Origin: Macrocystis pyrifera
Lineage: Eukaryota; Sar; Phaeophyceae; Laminariales; Laminariaceae
Length of the DNA stretch: 64,000 nt
NCBI GenBank assembly: GCA_031763025.1
Contig: JASSKH010000002.1
Span: 19,906,168-19,970,167 of the forward strand
Reading direction: 5' to 3'
Shown one piece after another: positions 39,236 through 64,000 of this stretch. Each line of letters opens with the position of its first letter. Within the stretch, counting starts at the first letter, position 1. Under the pieces are notes generated by a model. It was not told the origin of the DNA, did no database searches, and was given only the letters and a program-made list of their open reading frames with translations. A program made the translations under genes and the position numbers.

Positions 39236-39554
39236 AAACGGAACCTTGGTGTGTTTGCGTTTAGGCGCAGCAGGTTCCACGTGCAGTGCGCCTTTGATTA
39301 TGAGGCACACGAAAGTGGTGGGTGTTTGTGCTAATTTTGTTGATACACGTGTCAAAGATGTTCAGCGACTGAAGCCGTGTGAGCCGCTTCACCACTCTGT
39401 CCAGAACTATAACCTATTAATAGCATAAAGTATGCGAGCGGGGGAATGCCATGTAGATATTGCCTATGGTTCCGGCCGTACAAGGAAGGTGTTCCAATCA
39501 AATAGCGCTAATTTACGGGGGTTGACTATAATAAATAGATAAATAGCCGCAATA

Positions 39555-43949: not shown

Positions 43950-46797
43950 CTGAGCCGTTGCTTGTGCCATGATCATGTGCTCTCTGCTGCGACGGCACCA
44001 CGAGAGCGCTGTAGTTGGAACCTCGCCGTGAAAATAGCCACATTCGAAAGATCTTGTGTAGAGCTACATCATAGTCATTTAAATCACCTCAATTCGTCGG
44101 GGCATGCGGGATATTTATAAATAGCCCCTGCCATCCACGACGCCGAATGATACGTATGTGCCATTCTGATGCAATAGTGTAACTATCGTTTGGTCTTCAT
44201 ATTTATGCCCCAACGGTCTTTACAATTCCGCCACGCTCTTCCCAAAGCCCGTCCCTCATTTGGGGGAGTAGGCGCTCTCTCTCTACGACAATAACAAACA
44301 GCTGCTGCAATAACAGCAGCAACGACATAGATAGCTAATCCCTGTGATCGTACGAGTTCCAACAGATGTATATGCTTGCTGTCGGGGCGTCGAGGCGGCT
44401 CTTCCTCTCGTTTATACGTTTGGATTTTTTTGTTCTCGATTGCAAGCGCTTGTCAAGCTTTGCCATCGCACTCTTCTTCCTCTACTGCTGCTGCTGCTGT
44501 GATCTGAGTCTCCGGTCTCGGGGTTGTTCGGTGGCATCACACGATTGTGTGCGGCGTGCTTTCTGCGTGTCGCAGCTGCTAGAGCTGCTAGCTGCGCGGT
44601 CGTCAGGTGCTTCCTCCATCGAGCAGAGGTTTCTATCTGTCGCGGGGCCCTTCTCCTCCTGCAAACACTGCTGCTGTGGTAGGCGTGCCGTGCTGCGATA
44701 GGTGGCGGAATTAACGACTGTCTATGTCTTCAAGTCATCATCCAATCAGCGTACGAATTTTGTCACAATTATAGGGTTTCCCCGTGAAAAAAAAACGTCG
44801 CGAAGATCGTCGTCTGGGGAAAAAAAAGACGTCTCGAGGTTACGCCGCTTTTTTATCCGTAAAAATACGAAAATCTGGGAATTTTACCACGACGAAAAAA
44901 TCTCACGAGAGGTACTTTTACGGCCTGTTTTTTTTCGTCGTGAGGATGAACAGCTGCGAACAGACCGCACCCAGCCCATCCCCCCCCTACTCCATATATA
45001 TCCCAACCTTGGCATCCCTCATCTGGGTCGCTGAAAGCAATCCACAGATCTGGGTCGCTGAAAGCAATCCACAGCAGCCGTGTATACCACGACGACAATA
45101 CCGCTTCAACGTGGGGCCGGCCGGCACCGCAGGAGATACTGCTTTCTGTTTGGGTGCGACCCATGTACAGCTCTGCGCTGATCGCCTGTTGAGTTTCTTG
45201 TCGACGGAAACATGTCCTCGGGTGCACGCAGCAAGGGGCATGCAACCACACCAACAGCGAGCGCAAGACATTCCCTTCGCACTCGCATCCCGCAGAGCCT
45301 AGGCCGTCGCGAAGGGTATGGAGAGCCGCAGCATGCCGGACTGGGGGTGGAGGGGGGTGGCGTTGGGCCAGTGAGGGCAACCGGGAGCAACAGCTCTTCT
45401 GTGTGTCTGGGTGATAGTTTTCAAATTGGCTCGCTGGGACTCTCACCGGAGTTGTAATTTGTGAGCTCGAGGGGTGGGGGAGCTGCTGCTGTCACAGTGG
45501 TTGGAGGTTCGAGCGGGGTGGAGGAGGCAGATCACAAGGACGAGGATGAGCAGGGGGGGAATAACGCAGGCGGCGGTACCGCAGCAGGATATTATGCTTG
45601 GGGTTGTATGTAGCGGGTCATTCGGAGCATATGGCGTTCGTATGATGTACGAAGCTACATGCACGGAGGATCGCTGCCTACGTGATTTTGCGTTTTTGAA
45701 GATACTACTACTGTAATGACCAGATACGAGGTATGACACCTGGCAGGAAGTACGTACTGCTGTTTGCTTTATGTACTCGTGTGTGGGGCAACTGCTGCTG
45801 TACGACCTTCAGGCATCCAGTAAACAACACACGCGTGATTGGACCCACGAATGGAAGGGGTGTAGCAGTAGCGCCAGTTTAGTAGCTGTTAACCGTGTCA
45901 TGAGATAGATGCGGGTTCATGAGTTACAAGTGATGAGAGCATTAGGGATGCGCGAATCGGCATACTGTAAAATAAATGTAGGAAATTGGATTTCACGACC
46001 ACAAACTCTCACAGACGTGTGAACCTCCCCCCTCCCTTGCGCACAACGTCTGCTGTACAAACTTGGGGCCGCCGTATGTGAATTTACACGCAGACATGCA
46101 CGGTCGCAACGCACTACTATTTTACCCCAACCTACCCGACGTCCGTGGGGACTCGTACCACTTTTGTTAAACGAAAGCTTTTATCTTCACACACCCGCGG
46201 GGATAACTACCGTTTCCATGTCATCAGTGTCCCACGGAAAAAGAGAACCTGGGTTGTAAAATCTTTTGCTGCAATTCGACGACAGTTTATCGGCGACCAG
46301 CACCCCCACTCCCCGACACAACACATTACCTCCTCCGACAATCAAAACTACTCGTCGACATCCAGCCTCTAACCAAGACACCGCCAAGAGAGTATGCCGG
46401 ACAATGATTCCTCTTCGAATCCTCAGTTTGGCGAGACGATTACGTACGAATCGGACGACTCCTATCTTGAATGTACGTGCGTGCGTGGGATTTTACTTTT
46501 TTGCGGAGCATGCGTTCAAGTTTAAGCGCGGGCCTTCATTGTTCACGAAAAGGCACGAGCGGCGAGATCTCCATAACTTTCGCAGACTACGCGTAACTTT
46601 CGCAGACTACTCGCCAAACTGTTCTTCAAACGTCACGGCGAACTTCACGACGATGTTTTATGAACTGAGACGACGTTCTCCGCGACGTTCTTTCACGGCG
46701 TTTTGTAAAAAATACGGGGAAACCCTATATTTGGTTGGTTTTAGTGTGTGTGATTGGCCTACGTCACAAAGGTTTCAGGCCCCAACACTGTGAAATT
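43950..46797 (-). mobile_element. GGCAATTT-ended element, copy 2, split by an insertion
   Basis: Reverse-orientation copy: ggcaccacgagagcgctgta at about 43990, gccacgctcttcccaaagcc at 44230, and caggccccaacactg at about 46780. It is interrupted between gtcacaATT (44770) and ATTtggttgg (46729) by the 1.96-kb element. Intact copies read gtcacaatttggttgg at this point. Confidence 0.8.
44771..46728. mobile_element. 1.96-kb DNA transposon with ATT duplication
   Basis: The perfect 15-bp ends ATAGGGTTTCCCCGT / ACGGGGAAACCCTAT are flanked by ATT (44768-44770; 46729-46731). Subterminal regions carry many cgtcg/cgacg motifs, typical of transposase-binding ends. A 23-bp block (ctgggtcgctgaaagcaat) is doubled at 45027-45072. 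Frames inside (for example 197 codons minus at 45446-44853) match no transposase I know, so it may be non-autonomous. Confidence 0.88.
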
Positions 46798-46884: not shown

Positions 46885-47386
46885 TGTAATGCGGTGACCG
46901 CTCTAGGGTAGTGGTAAGGGTAGTGGTAAGGGACGCAGGTGGTTCTGGCAGCTGGAAAGCAGTGATTCGCTTCTTCTGATTTAGATCTTCTTATTGATGG
47001 CGAGAGCTGAGGAGGTGCTCTGGTAGAGAAGTGAGAGGTAGGGGGGCGGGACTCGACGCCCAGATATACTCGTCCCACCCCACGCCACAAGCTCTCCTAA
47101 ATTCCTCTTATCTGATGTACGCCTACAGAACTTTCCTATGGCTACCGGTCGTTCTTCTGCTAATATAAGAACTTCTCACTTCGTGGTCCTATCTGCGTTA
47201 AGGAAGATTACTCTCGTCTAGGGGGTTATCCGCCCTAGGGAACATTCCTAAAAGAACATTACTCTCGACTAACGGAATATCCGCCGGGTTAATCCATTCT
47301 TTGGATTATTCTCGTATTCGTGAGACTATAAGACTGCAACGTATTATATATATCTATAGCCCATGAGTGCTCTACTCATATCACAT
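46885..47386 (+). mobile_element. Probable LTR (502 bp)
   Basis: It begins TGTAATGCGGTGACC and ends ATATCACA. One base later, TGGCCCACCCTGAATAG at 47388 could serve as a primer-binding site. The first ~105 bp recur at 63891-64000 with about one mismatch in the aligned core, also as an insertion into a known repeat. It contains a TATATATA box at about 47345 and degenerate repeats of attactctcg. No second LTR or coding region follows, so it is a truncated element. Confidence 0.6.
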
Positions 47387-47919
47387 TGGCCCACCCTGAA
47401 TAGTCGTATATGCAGACCACAATATGGTCGGAGGGTGATGACAAAGTTCATCCCGAACGGCCAGGAAAAAGGTGGTCGAAGATGCGGCTATTCGAAACAA
47501 AAGAAATTTGGCTATAGATCCCCCCACACCTCGTAATAAGACCCAAATACTACGGCGAGGTGGTGTTCGCTGAGAACAACCACTAAAAGGGAGACTAAAG
47601 GAGAGAGAGAGAGACAGAACTTAAAGCAGAGGCAAAAGGAGAAATCACCCAAAATGAAAACAAAGAAAGACGAACGCAAAAGGAGACGGAAACCGAAGCG
47701 AAGGCTGAAGAAGAAAACGAAGACCGAAGTGAAGGAAAAAGAAGGACGTACAAGGGTGTTACTGGAGCCATTGTCTGGGGCCCAAGGAGGTACGAAAGGG
47801 TTGTTCGCTGAACCGGGTTGGCGAACGAGGAAACTCTAAAAAGGAGACAGTGATCACAATTCAAAAACATATATATATACAAGGCTTTCCTTCGGAGTGG
47901 GTATTCCGTCGTTTCTTGT
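47387..47919 (+). other. Leader-like region after the LTR, no clear gene
   Basis: Purine-rich, with a 61-codon Lys/Arg-rich frame at 47654-47839 (RKPKRRLKKKTKTE). It may be a remnant of the LTR element's internal region. No gag motif. Confidence 0.35.
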
Positions 47920-48118
47920 ACAAATACATTTAGTTTGGTTGGCTTTGGGCTATGACGCCAATTGCAGTTTTGGTTGGCTTTGGGCTTTGACGCCAATTGC
48001 AGTTATATTGCAATTGGGTTAATAGCCCAAAGCCAACCAAACTAAATGTTATGACGCCAATTGCAGTTATATTGCAATTGGGGCAATACCCAAAGCCAAC
48101 CAAACTAAATGTATTTGT
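47920..48118. mobile_element. 199-bp foldback element
   Basis: The outer ends ACAAATACATTTAGTTTGG and its exact reverse complement close the element. Inside, ggttggctttgggct followed by gacgccaattgcag is repeated directly and inverted. A GT may be duplicated at both sides. Confidence 0.8.
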
Positions 48119-48569
48119 GTAAGAAATGGTGAAGGATGTAATAATCGCGTTTATTTGTGAATGTAATGTGAAACGTAAGATCGGGTGACGCAAGAGTAAG
48201 AATGACATTCGTCTAACAATAAGGATAACATATTTCATCAGTGCGGGGAGAGAGTGGAGTAGTGCATGGCATGTGGATGATATACAACATACAGGCTGTT
48301 GTTTCAAGGAAGGTTCGGGACAGAGGGGAAAGCAGCAGTGCCGGCGACGACAACGGTTATGGAAAGTTGTATAGTTGCTGGGCGGCCGCGATTTCGATTT
48401 AGCCAGCATAGGAGTTTGGATGAGACATGATACGTAAATAGTCTTCCAGGCTGCTGTAGTAACGAGGCGGGAGGCCCAGAATGTGGATATGTCCGCTGTT
48501 GAACCCGTTGGGTATGTGTAGGGAGAAATAATCGTGATTTTGGGAAATGTGGGAACAATTTGTTGCCTC
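48119..48569. other. No gene; 3' side of the zinc-finger candidate
   Basis: Unique sequence. Minus frames run through it without recognised motifs. Confidence 0.35.
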
Positions 48570-48780
48570 TCATTCGTCCTGGATGGAGACAATCTGCTTG
48601 GCGTACTGCTTCGGAATTCCGCGAAGCCCTGGAGCAGGCGAAATGGAAGGGAGTCTTTTTGCGCTTGATGATGATGTCTCCGTCTTTGATGGTGGAGTCC
48701 GTCAGGCGGCAGTTGTAGCACTTGCCACCGACCTGATCGAAGTAAACAGGGTGCGCGGGGCGGGAGTGGCGTGCAGGGAA
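48570..48780 (-). CDS. Zinc-finger exon candidate (PARP-type-like C2HC)
   Basis: The minus frame reads GGKCYNCRLTDSTIKDGDII, then TPFHFAC, i.e. C-x2-C near 48715 and H-x2-C near 48635 with an IKxG box. This spacing resembles PARP-type zinc fingers. An AG before gtcggtggc is a possible splice acceptor. Right after HFAC another frame reads GIPKQYAKQIVSIQDE and stops at 48570, so either a 1-base shift or an unseen splice separates finger and C-terminus. Together with 51372-51662 it may be one gene, but the splice phases of the two pieces do not match directly. Confidence 0.35.
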
Positions 48781-48839
48781 TGGCGGGGGAGGGGGAAGGG
48801 GGCGGGGGGGGGGGGCAGAGTTCATTATTTGTACTGCTC

Positions 48840-50900
48840 TACAGCGGCACAACAGCAGTACGTAATCGCTTGCTATACGACGGCAGCAGCAGCAGCAGAA
48901 GCAGCAAGTACATGCGTAAAACGCAGCAGGAAAACGGCCAAAATATTTTTTTAACGTACCAAAACGACCATTTGGGTGCAAAAACGACCAATAAAAACAG
49001 TAATCCGAATACATAAGAACAATCAGTGGATATTGAGCCAGCATTAGCAGTATCAGCCGCAGCAGCCGCAGCAGCAGCAGTAGCAACGGCTTCGAGCAGT
49101 GGTTGCGGCAGCATTAGCAACATCAGCAGCAGCAGAAGCAGCAATGGATCGCCGCAGCGTTGGCAGCAGTAGCGGCATAGCAAATATATGATAAAAAAGA
49201 GGAAACAAAGTATGTACCCTGGTATGCCGCGACCGCAAAAACTACGGAATTTCATTGGCGACACAAAAATATGTACACACAAATGACCAACATGATGTAC
49301 AACGCAGCAGTAGCACCACAGCAGCGTAGCAGCGATATGGAAAGAACGAAGCCCAAAACGAGAAAAAGCAGTACGTACGCAAAATGCAGCTGCAAAATGA
49401 CCAAAATATTTTTCCCAGGTACTCAAACGACCATTTAGGTACAAAAACGATCAAGAAAAACAATAATCCGAGTACATGCGAACATCCAGTGAATATTGCG
49501 GCAGCATTATTATTAGCATTAGCAGCAGCAGCAGCAGCAGCAACAGCAACGGATCGCCGCAACGTTGGCTGCAGCAGCAGCATAGCAACGATGTGAAAAG
49601 AAGGAAGAAAAAAACTATGTACCCTGGTCTGCCGCAATCGCAAAACGTACGGTAATTATTGACGATACAGAAATATGTACACACACACGAGTGTAATACA
49701 CACACAAATCACGTCCAGCATGATGTACGGCAACAACGCAGCAACACCACAAAAAAAATCGTTGACGATAGAGAAATATGTACACACGCACAAGTGTAAT
49801 AGGCACACAAATCATGTCTAGCATGATGTGTACGGGAACAACGCAGCAGCGCCACAAAACGACAAAACGACCAAGAAACACAATTATCCGAGTACATACG
49901 AACATTCAATTCAGTGAATATTGCGGCACCACTATTAATAACAGCAGCAGAAGCAGCAGCAGAAGCAGCAACGGATCGCCACAGCGTTGGCAGCAGCAGC
50001 AGCATAGCAACGATATGAATAGAAGGAAGAAAAAAAGTATGTACCCCGAGTCCGTCCGAAAAGTATTTTTGGTACCTCACTAAAGATAGACCCAACCCCG
50101 CATGCTGTACGGCAACAACGCAGCAGCAGCATACGAAGTAACAATACGAAAAGAACCAAGTTAAAATACGAGAAAAAGTAGTTCGTACGCAAAATGCAGG
50201 AGCAAAACGACCAAAATATATTTTTTACGTATAAAAAAAAAACATTTGGGTACAAAAATGGCCAACAAAAACAATAATCCGCGTTGGCAGCAGCAACACA
50301 GCAACGATATGAAAACAAGGAAGAAGAAAACTATGTACCCTGGTATGCCGCGATCGCAAAACCTACGGAAATTCAGTGACGATACAGAAATATGTACACA
50401 CACAAGTGCAGCATGATGTACGGCAACCACGCAGCAGCACCACAGCAGCAGCAAGCAGCAGCATAGCAACGTAGCAACGATAGGAAAAAAAATCAAGCCA
50501 AAAACGAGAAAAAGCAGTACATACGCAAAATGCAGGAGCAAAACGACAAAAATATTTTTCACGTATCAAAACAACAATTTGGGTACAAAAACGACCAATA
50601 AAAACAATAATCCGAGTACATACGAACATTCAGCAGTCAGTGGATATTGCGGCAGCATTAGCAGCAGCAGAAGCAGCTACCTGGTACAGCATTAGCATTA
50701 GCAGAAGCTGCAATGAATCGCCGCAGCGTTGGCAGCAGCAGCGTTGGCAGCAGCAGCAGCAGCAGCAGCAGCATAGCGACGATATGAAAATATGGAAGAA
50801 AAAAAGCATGATGTACCCTAGTATGCCGCCATCGCGAAACCTACGGAATTTTATTGACGATCCGAAAATATGTACACTTCCAGCATGATGCACGGCAACA
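48840..50900. repeat. CAG-rich tandem repeat, ~400-460-bp units
   Basis: About five diverged units. Landmarks are aacaataatccgagtacata (48990, 49460, 49880, 50275, 50605) and tatgtaccctggtatgccgc (49212, 49617, 50040, 50335, 50814 with variants). Each unit also carries a (CAG)n/(GCA)n block. It lies between the two zinc-finger exon candidates and would be intronic if they are one gene. Confidence 0.85.
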
Positions 50901-51371
50901 ACGCAGCAGCACTACAGCAGCAGCTAGTGCACAGCAGCAGCAAGTGCACAGGAGCAGCAGGTGCACAGCAGCAGCACTCATGGCGTGGCGCTGACAGCAG
51001 CAGCAGCAGCAGCAGCAGCCGAAAACGAGCAAAGGGGGTACGTAGGGTCACCAAAACATGTACACACAGAAATCGTGTGCACCGAAAATGCACCACAGTA
51101 GCAGCTGCACTCACATCGTTCGGTGCGGTGACGGCGACAGCTGAATCCTCCGTTCCTTCGTTCACGTCCCGCAAACAGTTGTGCGTGTGCGCGTTCGCGT
51201 GCACTGTGTAAGAGGAGCCGACGCAACGCACGAAGGGGAAAGAACGAGCATGGATGAGTCCAAAAAATAATAAACGCTTTGAGGTAGGTTTGTATGCAAA
51301 AAGGCAATTGAAAACCCCCAAAAAACGTACTGGCAACATACAGCATTCAACAATAGACCCAAGACACTCAC
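50901..51371. repeat. (CAG)n stretches and unique spacer
   Basis: CAG/CAGCAG runs lie at about 50915-51020, followed by unique sequence. GTGAGT at 51371-51366 (minus) is a strong donor for the exon to its right. Confidence 0.5.
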
Positions 51372-51662
51372 CACTGTCAGCAGTCTCGAGGGGGTACGAG
51401 ACAGTCCCTTCCTTGATCGGGCGAGCACATAACTCGCAGTTGGTTGCCCAATACAGGATGATCCCGCCACCATCGCACATGAGATCCTCGCAGGTGGCGA
51501 AGGCCACGTTTTTGCCACCAGGCGCGGAGTTCTTGGGCAAGTAAGTAAGTGCTGGTCCGTGCACCGGTCGCAAACAACAGTCGGCACCAGGTCGGTCTTT
51601 GTCGTTGCCGCTCTCTTGCCAGAGGGCGAGGACCACGCGCCTCTCGACGAGGGGGAGGTGAG
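51372..51662 (-). CDS. Cys-rich exon candidate, zinc-binding
   Basis: A single open minus frame runs from a pyrimidine-tract acceptor (cctaAG at 51663) to a GTGAGT donor. It contains TCEDLMCDGGG and then NCELCARPIKEGTVSY. The CxxC followed by IKxG repeats the pattern seen at 48.7 kb, supporting a shared protein. The plus strand also has an open 96-codon frame here ending near a GTAAGT, so the strand is not certain. No family name can be given beyond zinc-finger-like. Confidence 0.35.
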
Positions 51663-53025
51663 CTTAGGGGGCGTGGAGAAGAGAGAGGCGGGGGATGCAG
51701 CACCAGCAGACAGCAGCAAGCAGCTTGGCCGCCTACAGCTGCATCTAGATGCCGTTCGTCGAAGGCGAGACGCCTCTTCTAGGCGTTGTGCAAAGAGCTG
51801 TCTATTGGTTGCAGTTTGCGAAGAAGAAAGAAGAAAGGTTGTTTGGCTGTTTGGCTGTTCGGCTGTTTCAAAGAAGAAGGGCTGTTCGCGAAGAGCTGTC
51901 TATCAGTCGGTCTGTCTGCCAAGAGCTAGCAAGTGACAACGACCTCAAAAATCGTAATTATAGTTGTATCTATATCCGCTAGGCGCCATGCCTTGTCTTG
52001 TGGCGAAGGTCCTAACATGGTAGACATCACGCGAGACAGAAGGGACACAGCTAGAGTGCTATGAGGGCTGCGTGCACTAGGGATTACTAAAGCCGAGAGA
52101 CGCAACAAACAACGCGGCGTATTGGAGACCTGTTCGTGGTGTGAACAATACCAGCAAACGTAGCAAGGTAGGCAACTCAACAAAAACAATCTCAAAGATG
52201 GTGGCGGCAAGAAAATCCGCAAGAAAATCGGCCAAATGCGTGCAGTTCGAAGTTGTAGATAGCGCGGGGCCCAAACACTAGCGTGTGCAACTCGGTCAAC
52301 CGGGGCGACATCAAACGTGGTGTCGTTTGCCAGAGGACAGAGGGGTGTGCGGAATACCGGACAAGAAAGAAAGAAGAAGAAAAGGGAAAGAGAAAACGAA
52401 ATACCATCGGGACCACAAAAAAAGACAAAAAGCTGGACACAGGTCAGGAGAAATCGATCGTGTCCGAACCGCTTATGTATGGCCGATAACTCAGCGGCCT
52501 TCCGGGGCGGCAATGCTATCGGGACCCTACTTGTCAAACATGGAAGAAACACGGGTGAGCTGGAAGCTCGATATAGTCTTAGCTCGAGGACCGTCTGAAA
52601 CACAGGTCGGCGGAAGTCGACTAAGGTCAGAGTACAGCTCAGGCTACAACACGATTTTACCTCGACGTGATATCGCCGATAATTGGCTGTAGGCTAGTGG
52701 AGTACAAACACAAATGCAAATGAAGGTATCGCTACGAGTCAGTGACCTGAACGTAAGGAGGTTACACGGAGCCGTAGGGGATAAGAAGAAAAACAAACGG
52801 GGGAGGGGGGAGACGATGATACTCCCAAACACATCCAAAAAGGAAACATACACGGCCTCGGATCGGTAGCCAACACGGGGTCGGTCGAGCGATACCGGTG
52901 GCGGTAGATGGAAACAAACACTCCCAAGAAGATGACTGCTGATGACTATTGAAGACTAACCCTGAAGAACTACTCTTAAGATATTGTAGACTAACCAGAA
53001 CCAAATACCCAGAACTAACAAAATA
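51663..53025. other. No gene; possible 3' flank of the Ty3 element
   Basis: A 225-codon minus frame (52603-51926) and a 135-codon plus frame (52285-52692) overlap without motifs. The part near 52700-53025 should include the 3' UTR/LTR of the minus-strand Ty3 element, but I see no purine tract or LTR match. Confidence 0.3.
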
Positions 53026-53109
53026 CTAAACTAAGGCTAACCAGGGGGGGGGAGTGGAAACGGTGGGGGTTCCGCGGGACACATCAGAGTTCCGCGGCAC
53101 CCCACGTGC

Positions 53110-54145
53110 TAGGCTCCCATTCCCATGGCGTTGAAGACACCACGATCCGTATACGGCGTTCCGTGCTGTAGTGTAGCGGGCGGGTTGGAGGTCGATCTTG
53201 ATCGGGCCGGGGTCGTCCAGGAACCGGACGATGTAGGAGCTTCCCGGTGCAGGCTCCGGCGGAGTTCCCGAAGAGGCGTCAGGGGGTGAGTTGTGAGCGA
53301 CCTTGCCCAGCCGCCACAGGCCGTCGCGCGCCTTGTACCATATGTGTGCTCCGGAGGGTAGGATGGTGGTGCTGAAGTTGTGGAGCCAAAGGCTGCGGGA
53401 GACCAAGGCGTAGCCTGGGGCGAGGAAGCTTTGTCCTTGAGATCGGGCCAGTTCGCGGTGAGCGGCGCCGATGCGCATCTGGCGGTAAAGGCGGTTCGTC
53501 TGGCGGTGCTGGGTTGGTGATCGTGACCAGTAAAGTAGGATGTGGCGCCGGAAGTGTTGAAGGTCCAGCTCGCGTTCCCAAGAGGGGCTGAGAAGTCCAG
53601 TCCAGTGAGTCTCGTACAGAACGGCCATGACCCCGCCGCGGCCGCGTACGAGTTGATGGCCAGTGATCTGCTTAACCTCGAGGCGTTCCGGTGGAGGAGT
53701 GACGTCGTCGACGGTGACGTGGTAAGGGGGGGACTTGGCGGCAGAAGTTGTGAGCACGTATGTAGTAAGGTCCGCGGGCAGCTGCTTGGGGATGTCGCTG
53801 GTGTCGTCGGGGTTCCGGCAAGGTTTGCATCGTTGGACGGAGACGCGTGGCTTGGAGTCCCGTCCCGGGAGGTCGAATGGAAGGTCGAGGAAAAGTAGCT
53901 TGTCGTGAAGGGGGCGATTGTCGGGGGTGTTTGAGGCGGGCGTCGGCCCTGCGGCGAGGACCTTGAAGGGGCCATTCCAGTTCAGGGAAAGCTTCGTCTT
54001 GAGGACGGTTGCGTCGGTGCCCTTTTTGACGCCTTGGCGGATGGTTGAGGCGGAGTTGTAGACCCAAACCCAGCCGCCTATGGCGAAGGGGGGGGATGCT
54101 AGGAGGGCGGCCATGATGGGCGCATTGCGGCGCTGAAGATGCGAG
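53110..54145 (-). pseudogene. Integrase C-terminus, chromodomain and SH3-like tail
   Basis: Starting near 54110 the frame reads FAIGGWVWVYNSAST and LKTKLSLNWNGPFKVLA, the usual post-core integrase segment. A chromodomain-like stretch follows at about 53690-53533: EVKQITGHQLVRGRGG, ETHWTGLLSPSWERELDL and RRHILLYW (aromatic and acidic positions kept). Further on, at about 53360-53170, GAHIWYKARDGLWRLGKV and YIVRFLDDPGPIKIDLQP resemble a small SH3/Tudor-like barrel. Chromodomains steer Ty3 integrases to modified histones; the extra tail may add a second contact (inference). It stops at 53026. Confidence 0.75.
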
Positions 54146-55010
54146 ACGGTTGAGTCGGTGTAGGTCGCGGACGAGGGAATACGCGCGTCGTTGTCGGTCG
54201 GTGGCGAGGTTGATGTAAACCAGGTGATCGTGGTTCAAGCTTTGGTGACCGCCGATGTTGTCGGGTTCGAAGACCGAGAGCGGGAGGCGAGGAAAGCGGC
54301 CCATGTGGATTTCGTTAGGTGCAAGCCCTGTGGCGGCGTTCACGGAATTGTTGTAGGCCAACGACACGTGTGGGAGCAGCACGTCCCAGTCGGTCTGCTG
54401 TTCGTTGCCAACCATAGAGAGCATGTGGGCCAGCACGTGGTTGACGCGCTCGACGCCGCCGTTGGTGCAGGGGTGGTAGGAGCTGGTGTTGACCTTGTGG
54501 ACGTCAAGGCGTTCGTAGACGATGTTCGCAAGCTTGGAGGTGAGATGTAGTCCGTTGTCGGAGAGAAGTGTAACCGGGCACCCCCAGAGAGGGATGTACT
54601 CGTTCAGGAAGATGTCGGCAGTGCCGGCGGCCGTGAACTGCGCCGCTGAAACGGCATACATATCGGCGCGGCGGCTGAAGCGGTCTGTGAAGAGGAGGAT
54701 GTGGACGTTCCCGCGCGGCGTGAGCGGCAGGGGCCCGAAGTAGTCGACGCTGACGGTGATGCCAGGCCCGTTGGGCAAAGGAAGAGAAAGGATGGGCCAA
54801 CGAATGGTGTGCCGGGAGGTCTTCCGCGCCTGGCATTGAAGGCAACGGCGGATCCACCAGCGGACGGAAGCGTCCATGCCAATCCACCAAAAGAAACGTG
54901 CCAACATGCGGACCGTTCGGGTGACTCCCAGGTGTAGAGAGGTGGTGGCGTGGCATGTGTTCAGCACCCAAAGGCGCATTAACATTGGCACGTAGACGCG
55001 TGGGGTAGAG
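54120..55010 (-). pseudogene. Ty3/gypsy integrase core
   Basis: The HHCC finger reads CHATTSLHLG (about 54960) through RRCLQCQARKTSRH (about 54835). The catalytic triad is D in VDYFGPLP (about 54740), D in LLSDNG (about 54560) and E in GGVERVNH (about 54450), with exactly 35 residues between the second D and E. The core frame is intact from about 55.0 to 54.15 kb, then shifts into the next frame. It would join element cDNA ends to host DNA. Confidence 0.92.
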
Positions 55011-55311: not shown

Positions 55312-56012
55312 TCAAGAAGGGGCACTACCGGTGGTGTTGGTGCCGGCGGAGAGGGCATTGTTGAGGGTGTCGTTCTTTGCGTAGTGGGCGCCAATGGCTT
55401 GGGTGGCGGTCGGCGTCCAAACCGGTAGTCGGCTGTAGGCCGAGGGGTTCCCGCGGCAGCGGCGACGCGATGGCGGGTCCGAGAAGATACCAGACCTGGA
55501 AGGGCTGGTGTCGTGGCGCCAATGGTGGGCGGCGGAGAAAACGACGGACGGCATGGAAGCCGAGCCTGGAGGAGCTCCGGTGTTCACGGTGGCATTCTCG
55601 GTGGCGGCAAGCTGTCCGGTGATGGAGTCGCGGGTCGCAATAGGCCCGATGAAGGTGTGGGTTGCGGGGGAAAGGGTGGGGTGCCCCATACGTGGTCCGA
55701 GTAGGCGAAAGTCGCGGAAGTCGTCGTCGGTGAAGGGGAGCGGCTGGATGGTTGGGATGGGTCTGGAAGGGGGGGACACGAGCCCACCCAAGCCGATACC
55801 CAGGGTGGAAGGGTCGTTCGGCGCGAAGCCGCAGGGGCGGATGAGGTAGATGCCGACGGTGTCGGGGCCAGTGAGGCGGTTGCGTCCGGTGCGGTCGGCG
55901 TCGGTGGCTGGTTGGGGAAGCAGGGAGAGGAAGTCGGCGTTGTCGTTGGCCGTGCCCTTCCGGTACTCCAGCGTGTAGGTGTACGCTGAAAGGAGCTCGA
56001 GCCGTTGGGCTG
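55312..56012 (-). pseudogene. RNase H C-terminus and RH-IN linker
   Basis: QRLELLSAYTYTLEYRKG and NDNADFLSLLPQP at about 56012-55910 match the closing segment of Ty3 RNase H (the usual LLSAYDFEIEYRPG... NADALSRLP pattern). A long Pro/Thr-rich spacer with FTDDDFRDFRLLGPRMG follows to a stop near 55312. The catalytic part of RNase H is absent. Confidence 0.8.
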
Positions 56013-56770
56013 TCCGGGGGTACGGTGATCTTGAACGGCATGAGCGGGCACGAGCCGAAGTCAGTCTTGGTGGTGGAGAAGACGTCCTGGAATTCGCAGA
56101 GGACGTCTCCCAGGTTGTTGATCACCGACGGGGTTCATCTAGAACCGTGCAGGTCGAAGTTGACGTCGCGTAGGTGTAACGGCAGACGTTCCCAGAGGTC
56201 GAGGAAGCTTTCCCGTTGGTCGGCGTTGAGGCGTGCAACAAGTTGTGGGCACGGGGCTTTTGGTGCGGTAGGAGAGTCGTCTGTCGATGGGCTCTGGTCG
56301 GCCACGGGGATGTTGTCGTGGAGGGCATGTACATCCGGAATCGGAGGGGGATAGGGAGGGGCCAAGGAAGGGTGTCCAAGGGTGGAAAGTGGTACCTGTA
56401 CCAGTGGGGAGCAGGAGGGTCCGAGGAGGTCGCCCGGCTCGAGATCGGTAGATCCAGATAGTGGGACCGTTTGGTATTCGTCGGAGACGAAAACGGCCGG
56501 GTCGGAAAGGGGGTTCTCGCGGGGGAGCATGTTCACCATGTAGTTCCCGGTAAATGCTGGAGCGCCTGACTGACGCGCCTGGTTGACCTTGACGAGCTTG
56601 GGGGTGGAGGAAAGCGAAATAGCTTTGTTGCCGGCGAATCGGAGGGGGTAGACGTCGTCAGTGGAACGATCGTCGGGAATGAATGCTGAGGCTCCGTTGG
56701 GGTCATGGTGGTTCAAGGAGAGCTCACCGCGGGTTCGCCGGGGAGGTTGGTAGGGGGGGGTGGGCTGTTG
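56005..56770 (-). pseudogene. Protease-RT spacer and RT entry segment
   Basis: The frame passes from the protease end through a spacer (DDVYPLRFAGNKAISLS; VPLSGSTDLEPGDLLG) to LLxEF-type RT entry: NLGDVLCEFQDVFSTTKTD, then CPLMPFKITVPPDSP. At about 56005-56015 this joins the RNase H end in another frame. The whole polymerase core, including the YxDD box, is missing. Confidence 0.8.
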
Positions 56771-57330
56771 CTGGAGCGTGGTATACGAGCGTTGCTCGAA
56801 GCGCATCCAGCTGTCTCGTCCCAGAAGGATGGGGTGTTGTATGGTTCCCGCAGGAACTACGCAGGCCCATACTGCCAGGGCAGCGGTGGGGACTAGAGGC
56901 GCATACACTGGATGCTTAAGCGGATGGAGACGGAGGTGGAGAGGGGGGCTGAAGTGCCGAAACCTCCCCATGAACGGGGGGAACTGTGCCGTTCGCACGC
57001 ATCGGTGGCTGCCTGGGAAGCCTTCAGTTGTTCCACCGCGGTTGCGGTGATAAACGACTGGGGCGAGCCGGTATCGAGCAGTGCCACGAGTTCGCGGCGC
57101 GTAGTGGCGGTGGGGCCGCTGTGCACGAGTACTTTCGTCGTGAACGACGCGTCGTCGACGGTAATGATGCCGCTTGTAAGGCATGGTCCGTGTTCCGGTA
57201 TCGGCGGGCGGCGGGTAGGGAGGTGGCTGTGAGTTGCGGTGTTGATGGTGGACACTTGGGCAAAGTGGCTGCTGGGGTAGGCGTCGGGGGTAGCGGTAGG
57301 AGTGGCCCAAGTGGAGAGGTAGGCGGTTGC
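56771..57330 (-). pseudogene. Retropepsin (aspartic protease)
   Basis: GIITVDDASFTTKVLVHSG, then ELVALLDTGSPQSFITA with the catalytic DTG at about 57048-57091. After a frameshift near 56950 it continues to PILLGRDSWMRFEQRS, the ILG-D box that closes retropepsins. It would cleave the element's polyprotein. Confidence 0.88.
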
Positions 57331-57449
57331 CATGGAGGGGTCGGGCTTGTTTCGTGGATGCCGTCGGCTGTGGGGGAGACCCGGGTGGAGTCGGTGGGGG
57401 CGGGTGTTGGCTCCGGGTCGTGAAGATGGGGAGGAAATGGAGGCTGGGC

Positions 57450-57990
57450 GGAGCAATTGGCGCCGAGGCTTTCTCGAGCGTCCATCAGTATCCTGCCCAG
57501 CAGATTCCAACCACGCCAACGCGTCGGGTCACAGGCGTCCGGATGGTCGGCCTTGAAGCCTATGCCCCAGATGAGGTCGTGTGGGCTGGCCTCGGCAATG
57601 TGCTTTGTCGCCAGTTGCTATTAGCTCCTCCCGTAGCTCCGGGTGTTGGCGGAACTTGGAGAAGTTAATGTAGAGGACGATGGTGTAGCGGTGTCGCTCC
57701 TAGACCATTTCGTCGAAGTCGGAAACGGTTCGCCCAAGTGCTTTTTGGCGGGCCGGGTCGCGGGTCGCTTTGATGCGGCGCTCAGTTGTGATGTCCCCGA
57801 AGAGCGCGGCCTCTGCGCCATCATCATCTGCCCAGCGCAGTTGTATGTGACGCCATCGTGTTCGATGTCGCACAGGTACCACTGCGAAAAGACCGAAGAG
57901 GAGTCCCAGAAGAAGTGGAAATATGAGGCGGCCTCTGCGGTGACGTGTGCAGTTGATGGCGTCTTTGGTGTTGGGGGTGGGGGGCGACGA
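57450..57990 (-). pseudogene. NADAR (YbiA-like) domain in the Ty3 element
   Basis: Sense frames read YFHFFWDSSSVFSQWYLCDI, then HDGVTYNCAGQMMMA. After a shift near 57815 they continue ALFGD, RDPARQKALGRTVSDFDEMV, an in-frame TAG near 57700, then FRQHPELREELIATGD. After another shift near 57603 they read HIAEASPHDLIWGIGFKAD and NLLGRILMDAR. These are the NADAR signatures in correct order over the usual ~150 residues. The family includes N-glycosidases of riboflavin intermediates and ADP-ribose-linked substrates. The conserved Glu normally in the (A)EQxMMA motif is Gly here. One stop and two shifts show the same degree of decay as the protease next door. Confidence 0.85.
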
Positions 57991-58205
57991 TAATTTTTCC
58001 TATCGCCGCCTGGCGTCGACGGAGGTAGAGTCAGCAACGATCGAGCGGTGCTGACCGGAACCCTCGTGTTCGCGGGGGAATTGCTCGGCAAAACCGAGGT
58101 ACCGGGGCGGTCCTCGCCGGGGCTTATAAGCCAGGCGGGACGACCCTCAAGCGCCCTATCGTCCAACGTTTGGAGAACAGGGGCATACTCGCTAGGGGAT
58201 GCCAC
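57991..58205 (-). pseudogene. Pro/Ser-rich segment upstream of NADAR
   Basis: An open minus frame with LDDRALEGRPAWLISPGED and RRPPPPTPKTPSTAH runs in frame into NADAR. No capsid or zinc-knuckle motif is seen. The upstream end of the frame lies near 58205. Confidence 0.5.
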
Positions 58206-58396
58206 ACCTGGGGTCCGTGTCCACGCTTTGCGCGAAGCAGGCGAGGGGGACGGGTCAGGCGGCTCAGGGCAGACCCTGGTCGACGTTGGTCGCGAGTCTT
58301 CCGTATTTAAAACGGGACTGTTCCTCGAGGCTCAGGGACAGCGGTGGTGTCAACACCGTGGCAGCTGGAGGAAGCCCGTCGTTCGCGGGTTCAACG
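58206..58396. other. Junction between Ty3 element and satellite
   Basis: GC-rich; no LTR or primer-binding site recognised. Similarity to the satellite begins at about 58397. Confidence 0.4.
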
Positions 58397-60838
58397 CTGC
58401 CACATATCACCGACCGAGGTGTGAGAACTGTGATACTAGTGTGGGTCGGAGCCTCTAACCAGCGCACTTCATTCAGAGTTCGTGACGTAATCGTTGGGTT
58501 TGTCGATCGATGTCAAACCTGAGAAATTGTCTATTTTTTGTCATCGGTGAGGGGTAGAGATTTTTTGTCGTCTGTCTTCTACAGACCAGTGCCAAAATGG
58601 TTTTTTATCAGACGCCTGGTCAGCCCACGCCACATATCACCGACCGAGGTGTGAGCACTGTGACACTAGGCTGGGTCGGAGACCTTAACCAGCGCATTCC
58701 GTTCAGATTTCATGACGGTGTCGTTGGTTTTGTCGATCGATGTCTGCCGAGGATTCTCATAAAAGTTGGCTCTAGTCACTGGGAATGACTATACATCGCT
58801 CCAGTATTTGCCAAAACAGGGGTTTTACATACATTGCGCGGCGCGCAATTAAAGTCCGCGTAAGCTGTCCCGTGACGTATAAAATTTGCCCCCGGTGGCA
58901 AGTCTAAAATAACACGGGGCAGTTGACGCCAGCTATCTTCCAATCAAATGGCTGAAATAACGCGAACGACGGGAGCCATCTTCCAATAAAATCGCTGTAT
59001 TAACGGGAACCACGGGAACCACGTGAAATCACGCCGCGCACAAACTAGAAACTAGAAGAAGAAAGACACAGCTCGCAGCTCGCACACCCGCAGTCACGCG
59101 ACGATTGACCTTCGATCTCGACATATACTCCACCCATGGTCAACGAACTTGGTACCGGGCAAGGCCAATGAGTTTAAATTATGGCCTGGGAGGTACAATT
59201 GGAATCCGTGGTCTAGGGGGCGAGAGGTTGGCCGCGGCGTCCTATGCTCTTCGTCAGAGCTTTCAAAAAGTTCTGTTTCGTGCCAACGGAGAGGAATCGA
59301 GAGTTTTTGTCGTCTGTTTTCTACATACCAGGTGCCAAATATGTCTTTAGTAGACGCCTGGCCCACCCACGCCACATATCACCGACCGAGGTGTGAGAAC
59401 TGTGATACTAGTGTGGGTCGGAGCCTCTAACCAGCGCACTTCATTCAGAGTTCGTGACGTATTCGTTGGGTTTGTCGATCGATGTCAAACCTGAGAAATT
59501 GTCTATTTTTTGTCATCGGTGAGGGGTAGAGATTTTTTGTCGTCTGTCTTCTACAGACCAGTGCCAAAATGTTTTTTTATCAGACGCCTGGTCAGCCCAC
59601 GCCACATATCACCGACCGAGGTGTGAGCACTGTGACACTAGGCTGGGTCGGAGACCTTAACCAGCGCATTCCGTTCAGATTTCATGACGGTGTCGTTGGT
59701 TTTGTCGATCGATGTCTGCCGAGGATTCTCATAAAAGTTGGCTCTAGTCACTGGGAATGACTATACATCGTTCCAGTATTTGCCAAAACAGGGGTTTTAC
59801 ATACATTGCGCGGCGCGCAATTAAAGTCCGCGTAAGCTGTCCCGTGACGTATAAAATTTGCCCCCGGTGGCAAGTCTAAAATAACACGGGGCAGTTGACG
59901 CCAGCTATCTTCCAATCAAATGGCTGAAATAACGCGAACGACGGGAGCCATCTTCCAATAAAATCGCTGTATTAACGGGAACCACGGGAACCACGTGAAA
60001 TCACGCCGCACACAAACTAGAAACTAGAAGAAGAAAGACACAGCTCGCAGCTCGCACACCCGCAGTCACGCGACGATTGACCTTCGATCTCGACATATAC
60101 TCCACCCATGGTCAACGAACTTGGTACCGGGCAAGGCCAATGAGTTTAAATTATGGCCTGGGAGGTACAATTGGAATCCGTGGTCTAGGGGGCGAGAGGT
60201 TGGCCGCGGCGTCCTATGCTCTTCGTCAGAGCTTTCAAAAATTTCTGTTTCGTGCCAACGGAGAGGAATCGAGAGTTTTTGTCGTCTGTTTTCTACATAC
60301 CAGGTGCCAAATATGTCTTTAGTAGACGCCTGGCCCACCCACGCCACATATCACCGACCGAGGTGTGAGAACTGTGATACTAGTGTGGGTCGGAGCCTCT
60401 AACCAGCGCACTTCATTCAGAGTTCGTGACGTATTCGTTGGGTTTGTCGATCGATGTCAAACCTGAGAAATTGTCTATTTTTTGTCATCGGTGAGGGGTA
60501 GAGATTTTTTGTCGTCTGTCTTCTACAGACCAGTGCCAAAATGTTTTTTTATCAGACGCCTGGTCAGCCCACGCCACATATCACCGACCGAGGTGTGAGC
60601 ACTGTGACACTAGGCTGGGTCGGAGACCTTAACCAGCGCATTCCGTTCAGATTTCATGACGGTGTCGTTGGTTTTGTCGATCGATGTCTGCCGAGGATTC
60701 TCATAAAAGTTGGCTCTAGTCACTGGGAATGACTATACATCGTTCCAGTATTTGCCAAAACAGGGGTTTTACATACATTGCGCGGCGCGCAATTAAAGTC
60801 CGCGTAAGCTGTCCCGTGACGTATAAAATTTGCCCCGG
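58397..60838 (+). repeat. 972-bp satellite, 2.5 copies
   Basis: The period is exactly 972 bp (for example identical frames at 58597, 59569 and 60541). Copies differ at only a few positions (gacgtaatcg/gacgtattcg; cgctccag/cgttccag; cgcgcacaaac/cgcacacaaac), so amplification is recent. Inside each unit a ~120-bp block (gccacatatcaccgaccgag to gtcgatcgatgtc) occurs twice about 230 bp apart, and a ccatcttccaat-type block also occurs twice. Short frames in the unit are not protein-like. The array ends at gccccggtggc. Confidence 0.95.
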
Positions 60839-60905
60839 TGGCTTGGTAGGTGGTCCGCGTGCCTGTCAAGATCAATTTCGCGGGTTCAAGTCCCACCGAG
60901 TGCAC
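60837..60905 (+). other. tRNA-like sequence with box A/B, probably pseudogene or SINE head
   Basis: GGTGGCTTGGTAGG resembles box A, and GCGGGTTCAAGTCCCAC resembles box B and the T-arm, with suitable spacing. CTGTCAA would put GTC (Asp) in the anticodon loop. The acceptor stem pairs at only about 4 of 7 positions and the anticodon stem is poor, so a functional tRNA is unlikely. It starts exactly where the satellite stops. Confidence 0.35.
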
Positions 60906-61231
60906 ATGCTCATAGGGACTTTTTTTTGCATAAAAAATTGATAAGCGGAAAGCGCGAAAGCGTGAGTTGGCTATATTCGATGAAAATCGACGAGCAGTGG
61001 GAATGCTGAACCCTATGCGCGACAAAAATAAAAGGCACGTACCGGGGGGGAGAAGGGACGACACCTGTGACCACGGCTTGTCCAGAAGATCGTCGAGGGT
61101 AAAACCTCCTACGAGTGGGCTGGGAAGTAAAAGTGATGGATAAAAAAAAAATATAAAATAAAAAATACTAAACTTCAATGAAACCAATACCTCCATACTA
61201 AAAGCTAGAGGAAACCAATCTCACCACAGGA
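60906..61231. other. No gene seen
   Basis: A-rich near 61141-61170. No motif or repeat match found. Confidence 0.4.
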
Positions 61232-61300
61232 GAGGGAAACATTTCCAAGGCTTGCGCAGGCATTCTCGATACGGGTCGCTCAAGTTTTCGAGTTTTATGG
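61232..61300. mobile_element. End fragment of a GGCAATTT element
   Basis: gagggaaacatttcc to caagttttcgagtttt matches the terminal region of the family in reverse. The next copy inserted at its end, duplicating TTTTATGG. Confidence 0.7.
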
Positions 61301-62315
61301 GGCAATTTCGCAGTGTTGGGGCCTGAAACCTTTGTGACGTAGGCCAATCACACACACTAAAACCAACCAAATTGTCACAGAATTCGTACGCTGATTGGAT
61401 GATGACTTGAAGAACCTAGCTTGTCAATTCCGCCGCCCATCGCAGCACGGTGGGGCTTTGGGAAGAGCGTGGCGGAATTGTAAGGACCGTTGGGGCATAG
61501 ATATGAAGAACAAACGGTCGTTATACATTATTGCATCAGAATGGCGCATCAGCGTCGTGGATGGCTGGGGCCATTTATAAATATAGTCCCCATGCTCACA
61601 CGAGTTGAGGTGGTTTAGATGCCTATGATGTAGCTCTACACAAGATCTTTCGAATGTGGCTATTGTCACGGCGAGGTTCCAACTACAGCGCTCTCGTGAT
61701 GGCGTCGCAGCAGAGAGCACATACATGGCACGGGCAACAACACAAAACTCGAAAACTTGAGCGACCCGTATCGAGAATGCCTGCGCAAGCCCTGGAAATG
61801 TTTCCCTCTCTTGTGGTGGAAATCGAGTTTATAAGCCTTAAATTCATGTAGCGTTTGTTACGTAACATTTTTAGTATACATACATTTCCCTACAATGGCG
61901 TCGCAGGCAGGGCGTGAGATTTTGAAGAGTGAGGTCCGTGGTTCGATTCTCGCCTTCGTCCCCCAAGAAAAAAGGAAAAAAAAAAAAAAGGGGAATATCT
62001 CATGTTCAAGAACCTGTAAAACTCCCTCACTTAGAAAACACCTAGAAAGGAACGATGAGAGCAATGCGATCATTGCATACTGAGTCCGGTATACCGAAAA
62101 ATCGGAGGTAAAACTTGGATACTCAGAGTCTCATCGGGGTTCCTGACTTACTCGCAAGGAGAGATAAGTCAGGTTTAGTGACGGCGAATGTTGTGGAAAT
62201 CGAGTTTATAAGCCTTAAATTCATGTAGCGTTTGTTACGGAACATTTTTAGTCTACATTTCCCTACACTCCTCTTTTTTTTCGCCTCTCCCAGGCCCCAC
62301 TACTAGAAAATTGCC
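61301..62315 (+). mobile_element. GGCAATTT-ended element, complete, 8-bp duplication
   Basis: The ends are GGCAATTTCGCAGTGTTGGGG and (inverted) GGCAATTTTCTAGTAGTGGGG, which continue to match through GCCTG. TTTTATGG is duplicated at 61293-61300 and 62316-62323. Compared with the copy at 62330 it lacks the central CAG-bearing ~500 bp. A 456-bp LTR-like element is nested in its right end. An 8-bp duplication fits hAT or P-type transposition. No transposase. Confidence 0.85.
61812..62267 (+). mobile_element. TRIM-like miniature LTR element (456 bp)
   Basis: Direct terminal repeats 61812-61894 and 62189-62267 (83 and 79 bp, starting TGTxGTGGAAAT and ending CCCTACA) differ by a few bases and a 4-bp indel. 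One base after the left repeat, TGGCGTCGCAGGCAGG at 61896 could be a primer-binding site. The interior has GGTTCGATTCTCG (box B-like) and an A-rich run at 61969-61991. It interrupts the host element where other copies read tttccctc-ctctttttt. The polypurine tract is not obvious and flanking duplication is imperfect. Confidence 0.5.
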
Positions 62316-62329
62316 TTTTATGGGGGAGA

Positions 62330-63289
62330 GGCAATTTCGCAGTGTTGGGGCCTGAAACCTTTGTGACGTAGGCCAATCACACACACTAAAACCAACCAAA
62401 TTGTGACAGAATTCGTACGCTGATTGGATGATGACTTGAAGACATAGACAGTCGTTAATTCCGCCGCCGATCGCAGCACGGCAAACCTACCACAGCAGCA
62501 GTGTTTGCAGGAGGAGAAGCGCCCCGCGACAGATAGAAACCTCTGCTCGATGAAGGAAGCACCTGACGACCGCGCAGCAAGCAGCTCTAGCAGCTGCGAC
62601 ACGCAGAAAGCACGCCGCACTCGTGTGATGCCACCGAACAACCCCGAGACCGGAGACTCAGATCACCGCAGCAGCAGTAGAGGAAGAAGAGTGCGATGGC
62701 AAAGCTTGACAAGCGCTTGCAATCGAGAACAAAAAAATCCAAACGTATGAACGAGATGCAGAGCCACCTCGACACCCCGACAGCAAGCATATACATCTGT
62801 TGGAACTCGTACGATCACAGGGACTAGCTATCTATGTCGTTGCTGCTGTTATTGCAGCAGCTGTGTGTTATTGTCGTAGAGAGAGAGCGCCTACTCCCCC
62901 AAATCCGAACGTCGATTGGCGAGAAGAGACGAGGGAGGGGCTTTGGGAAGAGCGTGGCGGAATTGTAAAGACCGTTGGGGCATAAATATGAAGACCAAAC
63001 GATCGTTACATTATTGTATCAGAATGGCACGTACGTATCATTCGGCGTCGTGGATGGCTGGGGCCATTTATAAATATCCCGCATGCCCCGACGAATTGAG
63101 GTGATTTAAATGATTACGATGTAGCTCTACACAAGATCTTTCGAATGTGGCTATTTTCACGGCGAGGTTCCAACTACAGCGCAATCGTGGTGGCGTCGCA
63201 GCAGAGAGCACATCATGGCACGGGCAACAACACAAAACTCGAAAACTTGAGCGACCCGTATTGAGAATGCCTGCGCAAGCCTTGGAAAT
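62330..63289 (+). mobile_element. GGCAATTT-ended element, copy 4, right-truncated
   Basis: GGCAATTTCGCAG at 62330 begins a copy with the full central region (CAG-rich 62485-62710, gtggcggaattgtaaag at 62953, ggcgaggttccaact at 63159). It ends at cttggaaatg near 63289, before the expected terminal region. Confidence 0.8.
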
Positions 63290-63821
63290 GCCGTTCGCAG
63301 CTGTGGAGAAAAAGCCTGTTGTATGCGGATGAAGTGCGTTGTACAGTGCGCTGTCCTCTGATGAACTGATGTGTTGGTGTTCGTGGAGTAAATGCAGTAG
63401 GCGGAGATCAAGAGTATAGCTGAAAAGTCGTATTAATATCTTCGGGCAGGTGGGCAGATGCTGAGGGAAAACGATGAACCGACGAGAGGGGGCGGGGGCG
63501 ACCTCTCCTCCTTGCTCGTCTCGCATTCCCAACTGCTCCGATTATATCGTTCCTACTTTATCCGTGCTCATGAGAAGAGCTGATCTACCTTCTGCTGTCT
63601 GTTGACCAACGTCTCTCCTGTGCCAAGAGGCAGAACAGGAGCAGTATTCGTACCTGTCTTTGACCCACATACCTTCTCTATCCCTCCTATGACCCAGCAC
63701 TTATCCTATCAGCACTTCTCAGTACAGATTACGTAGATCTCACCTCCGTACTGCTGTTGATTGGCCTATTTCTGTGCCTACTCTCTCTTCCTAGTTCTCT
63801 CATTTCCTTTCTCCTATAGCT
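63290..63821. other. No gene recognised
   Basis: A 154-codon minus frame spans 63532-63068 but runs into repeat sequence. CT-rich from 63540. Confidence 0.35.
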
Positions 63822-63890: not shown

Positions 63891-64000
63891 TGTGAAGCGG
63901 TGACCGCTCTAGGGTAGTGGTAAGGGTAGTGGTAAGGGACGCAGGTGGTTCTGGCAGCTGGAAAGCAGTGCTTCGCTTCTTCTGATTTAGATCTTCTTAT
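63891..64000 (+). mobile_element. LTR start, cut by window end
   Basis: TGTGAAGCGGTGACC onward is nearly identical to 46885-46995. It interrupts a known repeat at tactcg, so TG marks a real insertion edge. Confidence 0.7.

Follow-up and report, generated by a model that had tools for sequence, protein, structure and literature searches.

A NADAR domain in the Pol region of a decayed Ty3/gypsy retrotransposon of the giant kelp Macrocystis pyrifera

A 64,000-nucleotide stretch of the genome of the giant kelp Macrocystis pyrifera (contig JASSKH010000002.1, positions 19,906,168 to 19,970,167; hereafter the window) encodes, at 57465–57914 on its minus strand, a degenerate NADAR domain (PF08719), which is followed in line by a retropepsin, a stub of reverse transcriptase (RT) and an integrase (IN). 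It is what remains of NADAR in a Ty3/gypsy long terminal repeat (LTR) retrotransposon that has decayed. The copy is dead: it is truncated at its 5′ end, broken in frame, devoid of the catalytic glutamate and a member of a subfamily that has lost RT. In well-preserved siblings elsewhere in the genome, NADAR is, as read from their translated frames, the first recognised domain of Pol, standing before protease (PR), RT, RNase H and IN. A layout of this kind is already known. Dinatale et al. described a NADAR-bearing Gypsy lineage in Ectocarpus in 2025, for example Gypsy-12_Ec32 (PMC12477816), and an earlier note on this DNA, whose author knew of no described family with such a layout, is superseded on this point by that report. 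As far as seen, the kelp members, their split into two families and the RT-less subfamily are additions; no further title on NADAR-bearing retrotransposons was found among the literature matches listed.

The window NADAR consists of three collinear pieces in two frames. Scored separately against Pfam, the first gave E 9.9e-05 (profile positions 1–87 of 163), the second E 0.01 (positions 49–82) and the third E 1.5e-12 (positions 116–162; 48.5 bits, cut-off 35.1); only the third exceeds the cut-off by itself, and profile positions 88–115 were matched by none of these pieces. Window positions 57914–57465 align to the NADAR of the sibling locus L009, and the damage amounts to two frameshifts, one in-frame stop and replacement of the catalytic glutamate. 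All five NADAR signature strings that the earlier note had picked out are present on the minus strand, and the Pro/Thr-rich linker said to lead into a frameshifted retropepsin on the same strand is also borne out (Table 1), with a change of frame inside the protease. The retropepsin (LVALLDTGS) matches PF13650 weakly (E 0.069, below cut-off), and its two pieces share 57% and 67% identity with the L009 protease region. Further along, the integrase is recognised by an H2C2 zinc finger (E 4.8e-16) and an rve core (E 1.2e-04, below cut-off). Of the Pol domains, PR and IN survive in this copy, but RT and RNase H are largely gone.

The assembly from which the window derives (537,376,219 bases, 223 contigs) was searched with PF08719. 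Of 1,264 first-look candidates 150 were scored, and all 150 exceeded the cut-off, with siblings up to E 9.4e-51. The kelp genome thus holds at least 150 NADAR copies, counts from this search being lower bounds, and a chance match to the profile is ruled out. Twenty-eight loci were examined: the eight best-scoring as short stretches, and 20 as 10-kb stretches that were mostly picked for long stop-free frames; two proved to be the same place, leaving 27 distinct loci in a sample biased to well-preserved copies. A protease lies downstream of NADAR on the same strand in all 27. The earlier note had placed NADAR inside a Ty3/gypsy Pol and had asked whether other copies might lack it. One frame joins NADAR, protease and RT in L009, L010 and L016, and among these well-preserved loci NADAR and protease always occur together. 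L009 carries NADAR, PR, RT and RNase H in a single frame of 1,696 residues, the longest in the PF08719 search (Pfam NADAR E 6.7e-48, RVT_1 E 4.3e-25, RNase H E 8e-31), and L010 has a frame of 1,231 residues in which NADAR is likewise found with RT and RNase H. The Ty3/gypsy order PR-RT-RNase H-IN is present in both L009 and L010. A frame of 2,349 residues with a NADAR match was listed in a separate kelp search with P0034, a short brown-algal NADAR protein discussed below.

The kelp elements form two families. Family I, represented among the 20 longer loci by L009, L016, L020, L021, L024, L025 and L026, has NADAR, protease, RT and RNase H. Family II comprises 13 loci, with RT in two (L010 and L011) and missing from 11; compared with family I, its NADAR is 49% identical and its RT 76.5%. 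This division, the RT-less subfamily and the kelp host distinguish the elements from the Ectocarpus lineage, Gypsy-12_Ec32 being compared by description only. A point of likeness is that the Ectocarpus elements are reported to have a putative chromodomain after the integrase (PMC12477816) and that the kelp L009 shows a weak chromodomain match (E 0.0073, below cut-off).

The 465-bp LTRs of L010 are 99.785% identical (one difference in 465 positions), which suggests a recent insertion, and they delimit an element of 15,263 bp from end to end; read as TG...CA, they have a possible 4-bp duplication, GGTA, on either side. Upstream of NADAR is a Gag-like open reading frame (ORF) with a zinc knuckle (CX2CX4HX4C) that ends in TGA, and the NADAR-Pol frame continues in the same reading frame with further stops between. 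L010 is the only element read over its 5′ half, and there a putative Gag precedes NADAR-Pol. L010 has LTRs at both ends; the 20 kb read around L009 showed no LTR pair, and the window copy has a 3′ LTR only.

The same lesion recurs throughout the RT-less copies. A stretch equivalent to L010 positions 9053 to 10227, which covers the greater part of RT and RNase H, has been lost, with an identical breakpoint, from 11 of the 20 longer loci and from the window. Using 30-base patterns with up to 3 mismatches and reversed patterns as controls, the deletion junction was found at 121 genome sites (71 and 50 per strand; controls 0 and 0) and the intact-site pattern of the sister elements at 68 (32 and 36 per strand; controls 0 and 0). 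The RT-less pattern is the commoner of the two, the ratio being rough because the patterns are of different sequence. At 56 of 100 listed junctions and 22 of the 68 intact sites, a NADAR from the list of 150 lies upstream at near-constant spacing; the remaining sites may have a damaged NADAR that scores below the list, as in the window, or none. The integrase frame is open over 993–1,029 residues in four of the 11 RT-less loci. A shared loss of RT followed by spread, as defines a non-autonomous LTR element, is thus observed here.

A stand-alone host NADAR gene that merely lies beside an unrelated retrotransposon, one of two situations that the earlier note had named as refuting its claim, is almost certainly not what the window contains. 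Short brown-algal NADAR proteins do exist (P0012, P0034, P0035 and P0057), but they do not explain the window copy: the single open frames joining NADAR to RT already contradict this explanation, as do the constant NADAR-protease order in 27 of 27 loci and the regular spacing at junctions and intact sites.

Having spread without RT, the subfamily must have been copied with RT from elsewhere, and we infer that L010-like relatives are the obvious source. It is interesting to speculate that these elements are trans-mobilised rather than debris, having lost RT and kept their NADAR, protease and integrase frames for an advantage that NADAR would give to their RNA, or to shared particles, against ADP-ribosylation of nucleic acids in brown algae. 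This proposal seems improbable at present; were it correct, the genome defences of kelps would have to include one based on ADP-ribosylation.

The residues E43, K50, E125, D130 and W133 of the Phytophthora NADAR are reported to bind or act on ADP-ribose (PMC11543638). Mapped onto the kelp loci through alignments to the Phytophthora nicotianae structure (PDB entry 8bau), they are kept in 24, 24, 25, 25 and 25 of 25 loci, respectively (L005 and L008, whose matches begin later, were omitted). The catalytic Glu (E43), the Lys (K50) and the YbiA-type Glu (E125) that mark the YbiA subfamily of NADARs are accordingly present in the siblings, and the equivalent of E43 is lost in the window copy. An AlphaFold model of P0004, a homologue with a matching linker sequence, has 149 of 260 residues with a predicted local distance difference test score (pLDDT) of at least 90. 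Its only PDB matches at E up to 0.001 are 8bau (E 8.8e-11, 27% identity) and Escherichia coli YbiA (2b3w; E 7.5e-07, 22% identity). The kelp retro-NADAR is thus predicted to keep the NADAR fold, and its sequences retain the ADP-ribose-binding and catalytic residues. Fold and active-site residues are shared with both structures, neither of which is fused to Pol.

NADARs are reported to reverse guanine ADP-ribosylation of DNA (PMC11543638), and guanosine ADP-ribosylation in RNA is reported to be reversed by NADARs alone among the hydrolase families tested (PMC11833690). The kelp retro-NADAR is probably an ADP-ribosyl hydrolase of this kind, clearing guanine-linked ADP-ribose from the RNA or single-stranded complementary DNA (cDNA) of the element. 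Being the leading recognised domain of Pol, it would be produced together with Pol and packaged into the particle, and the adjacent protease could perhaps release it. Inside the particle it would strip ADP-ribose from guanine of the RNA template or single-stranded cDNA, and reverse transcription would thereby be spared a block caused by a host or invader ADP-ribosyltransferase.

Several points weigh against this function. YbiA of E. coli has its role in riboflavin metabolism (PMC11543638), and the retro-NADAR may accordingly have a different substrate. The Gag-like ORF of L010 had no Pfam match. In P0001, an Ectocarpus protein that also carries NADAR and RT, the gene model goes from NADAR nearly straight into RT without a protease stretch; our guess is that the model is wrong at this place. 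Given the spread of the RT-less elements, NADAR may merely have been carried along. The measures of selection are also to be read with care. Between families, the ratio of nonsynonymous to synonymous substitution rates (dN/dS; Nei-Gojobori count) is 0.14–0.19 for NADAR in four pairs. Single pairs gave 0.17 for the protease, 0.08 for RT and 0.285 for the stretch separating these two, and all the ratios are rough because dS is near saturation (about 2–3). Within families, the corresponding ratio of polymorphic differences (pN/pS) is only 0.57 in family I (12 copies) and 0.50 in the RT-less copies (11 copies), and 0.61 for RT-less copies against L010 and L011; wrong-frame controls gave 0.70 and 1.20 (family I) and 1.67 and 1.26 (RT-less), and the copies were picked for good score and long frames, which introduces a bias. 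These within-family values lend weak support to constraint, being too weak and too biased to prove it after the loss of RT. The divergence of NADAR between families looks like purifying selection, for which the earlier note had suggested a test of its codons.

Two other roles were considered. Retro-NADAR might act on soluble ADP-ribose derivatives or NAD-derived signals and so dull a NAD-based alarm of the host. The earlier note had likewise offered, as possibilities, an action against a NAD-based or ADP-ribosylation defence of the host or on capped nucleic acid. For viral NADAR domains in general, soluble derivatives have been put forward as targets (PMC9503650), and the ADP-ribose-binding residues are retained, but fusion to Pol fits a nucleic-acid substrate better, and action on soluble molecules is considered unlikely. 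Alternatively, NADAR could be non-catalytic here, serving as a nucleic-acid-binding or structural module or persisting as a passenger kept by linkage. The weak constraint within families, and the rise of a NADAR-carrying RT-less subfamily to 121 junction copies, would agree with that; it is nonetheless quite unlikely in view of catalytic residues preserved in 24 or 25 of 25 loci, the low dN/dS between families and the retention of NADAR by an Ectocarpus Pol as well as by the two kelp families.

That Ectocarpus Pol is P0001 (Ectocarpus sp. CCAP 1310/34; 1,398 residues), which contains NADAR, RT, RNase H, H2C2 and rve and was the sole match to the NADAR part of L009 Pol in a search among long proteins. 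Between family I, family II and P0001, RT identities are 71–77% (kelp versus P0001, 71–74%) and NADAR identities 46–56%, values that fit the presence of NADAR before the three separated. A tree of 75 rows places family I NADAR in a group of 18 (support 96/92) together with P0001, ten unnamed rows and five short proteins, of which two are from Ectocarpus, one is from Pylaiella, one is from Scytosiphon and one is a EukProt entry; the bootstrap of this tree was not fully settled, and branching within the group is weakly supported. Rows of these kinds also cluster when 14 viral sequences are added (Shimodaira-Hasegawa-like approximate likelihood ratio test, SH-aLRT, 96), and they lie on one side of a branch in a first tree of 122 rows (SH-aLRT 92). 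Close kinship with known viral NADARs was rejected, the 14 viral sequences falling outside the brown-algal group. Among viral contigs, 517 relatives were found, the best 80 of which are at most 51% identical to P0004.

The short proteins P0012, P0034, P0035 and P0057 share an N-terminal Cys/His motif resembling a small zinc finger, and judged by their length and by this motif in four of the five, the short brown-algal NADAR proteins look like stand-alone genes. The grouping of family I NADAR with them points to an exchange of NADAR between element and brown-algal host gene, in either direction, rather than to a recent acquisition from a bacterium or virus, and bears on the source of the domain. 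The Ectocarpus paper, in which NADAR hits outside Ectocarpus were almost all bacterial, suggested possible horizontal transfer (PMC12477816), whereas the nearest named kin of the kelp NADAR are these short brown-algal proteins. Family II NADAR stands on a long branch elsewhere in the tree; a separate origin for it was not established, since a tree joining both families was not rejected (approximately unbiased test, p-AU 0.123). The kelp search with P0034 gave matches at most 59% identical among the best 150 of 1,403 candidates; because introns break such matches, a stand-alone gene of kelp itself may have been missed. Esi0017_0056, a stress-induced Ectocarpus protein of 391 residues with NADAR at 132–291 that is reported to raise stress tolerance in Arabidopsis (PMC7922944), could represent a host gene or a fragment of a NADAR-Gypsy Pol.

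Comparable enzyme domains are reported from other mobile or viral genomes. Tx1 elements of Crassostrea gigas resemble the kelp elements in bearing a NADAR-like domain within a retrotransposon, but they are long interspersed nuclear elements and have it in ORF1 (PMC12477816). In animal RNA viruses NADAR also lies inside a replication polyprotein, although the replication genes are unrelated to those of the kelp element (PMC9503650). Orchid Ty3/gypsy elements with an AlkB N6-methyladenosine (m6A) RNA demethylase are, like those of kelp, large elements that have gained an enzyme removing a nucleic-acid modification; there the enzyme is a different one, occupies an additional ORF and was active in vitro (PMC9289625).

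NADAR-bearing Ty3/gypsy elements are therefore not a peculiarity of Ectocarpus, being abundant in giant kelp and divided there into two divergent families. Transposons of Ectocarpus are reported to have small RNAs and chromatin marks, with no silencing machinery of the animal or plant kind (PMC12477816). In the light of that description, an element enzyme that removes ADP-ribose from guanine would make this unexplored modification testable as a form of transposon control.

The extent of the element in the window (GC content 49.65%) was determined by DNA comparison with L010 (Table 1). The match runs from 58404 to 51959, then resumes at 47879 and reaches the far end of the 3′ LTR. At its truncated 5′ end the element abuts a tandem array in which a 972-bp unit is repeated about 2.5 times (58399–60842, >99% identical). 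Neither Gag nor a 5′ LTR of this element was found 5′ of 58404, as the match to L010 ends there, where the array starts.

Table 1. Parts of the NADAR-bearing element and adjoining features, in window coordinates
Feature	Position	Strand	Basis
LTR part, seemingly 3′ LTR of right-hand neighbour element, not 5′ LTR of window element	63891..64000	-	DNA comparison
Pro/Ser-rich N-terminal Pol region, open in frame of first NADAR piece	57960..58319	-	Translation; DNA match to L010 up to 58404
NADAR domain, disrupted by two frameshifts and one in-frame stop; catalytic Glu lost	57465..57914	-	Pfam, alignment to L009
Pro/Thr-rich linker, NADAR to protease	57202..57464	-	Translation
Retropepsin (LLDTGS), frame change inside	56774..57201	-	Alignment to L009
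Pol segment between protease and RT	56162..56740	-	40% identity to family I (L009)
N-terminal stub of RT fused to C-terminal stub of RNase H; RT/RNase H deletion of ~1.17 kb at 56002-56003	55927..56158	-	Alignment; junction 121 times in genome
Integrase (H2C2 zinc finger and catalytic core)	54125..55009	-	Pfam, alignment
C-terminal part of integrase region	53335..54144	-	Alignment
3′ part of element	51959..53118	-	94% identity to L030
~4 kb without match in L010 element (later insertion or exchange)	47880..51958	.	DNA comparison
3′ LTR of element	46885..47386	-	87.7% identity to L010 LTR

The LTR piece at the right edge of the window continues for 391 bp beyond it (L037:1-391) and is followed by sequence that in L010 precedes the 3′ LTR; another RT-deletion junction lies just to the right, at C200:19975111. 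On these two grounds the piece most likely belongs to a neighbouring NADAR-Gypsy element. Its assignment as the 5′ LTR of the window element was dropped in view of the sequence beyond the window. Within the stretch of about 4 kb that interrupts the element, degenerate repeats with CAG/TGC-rich runs occupy 48897–50939. Dispersed related repeats, some of them inverted, are found around the element at 39554–40822, 43957–44770 and 61222–63290.
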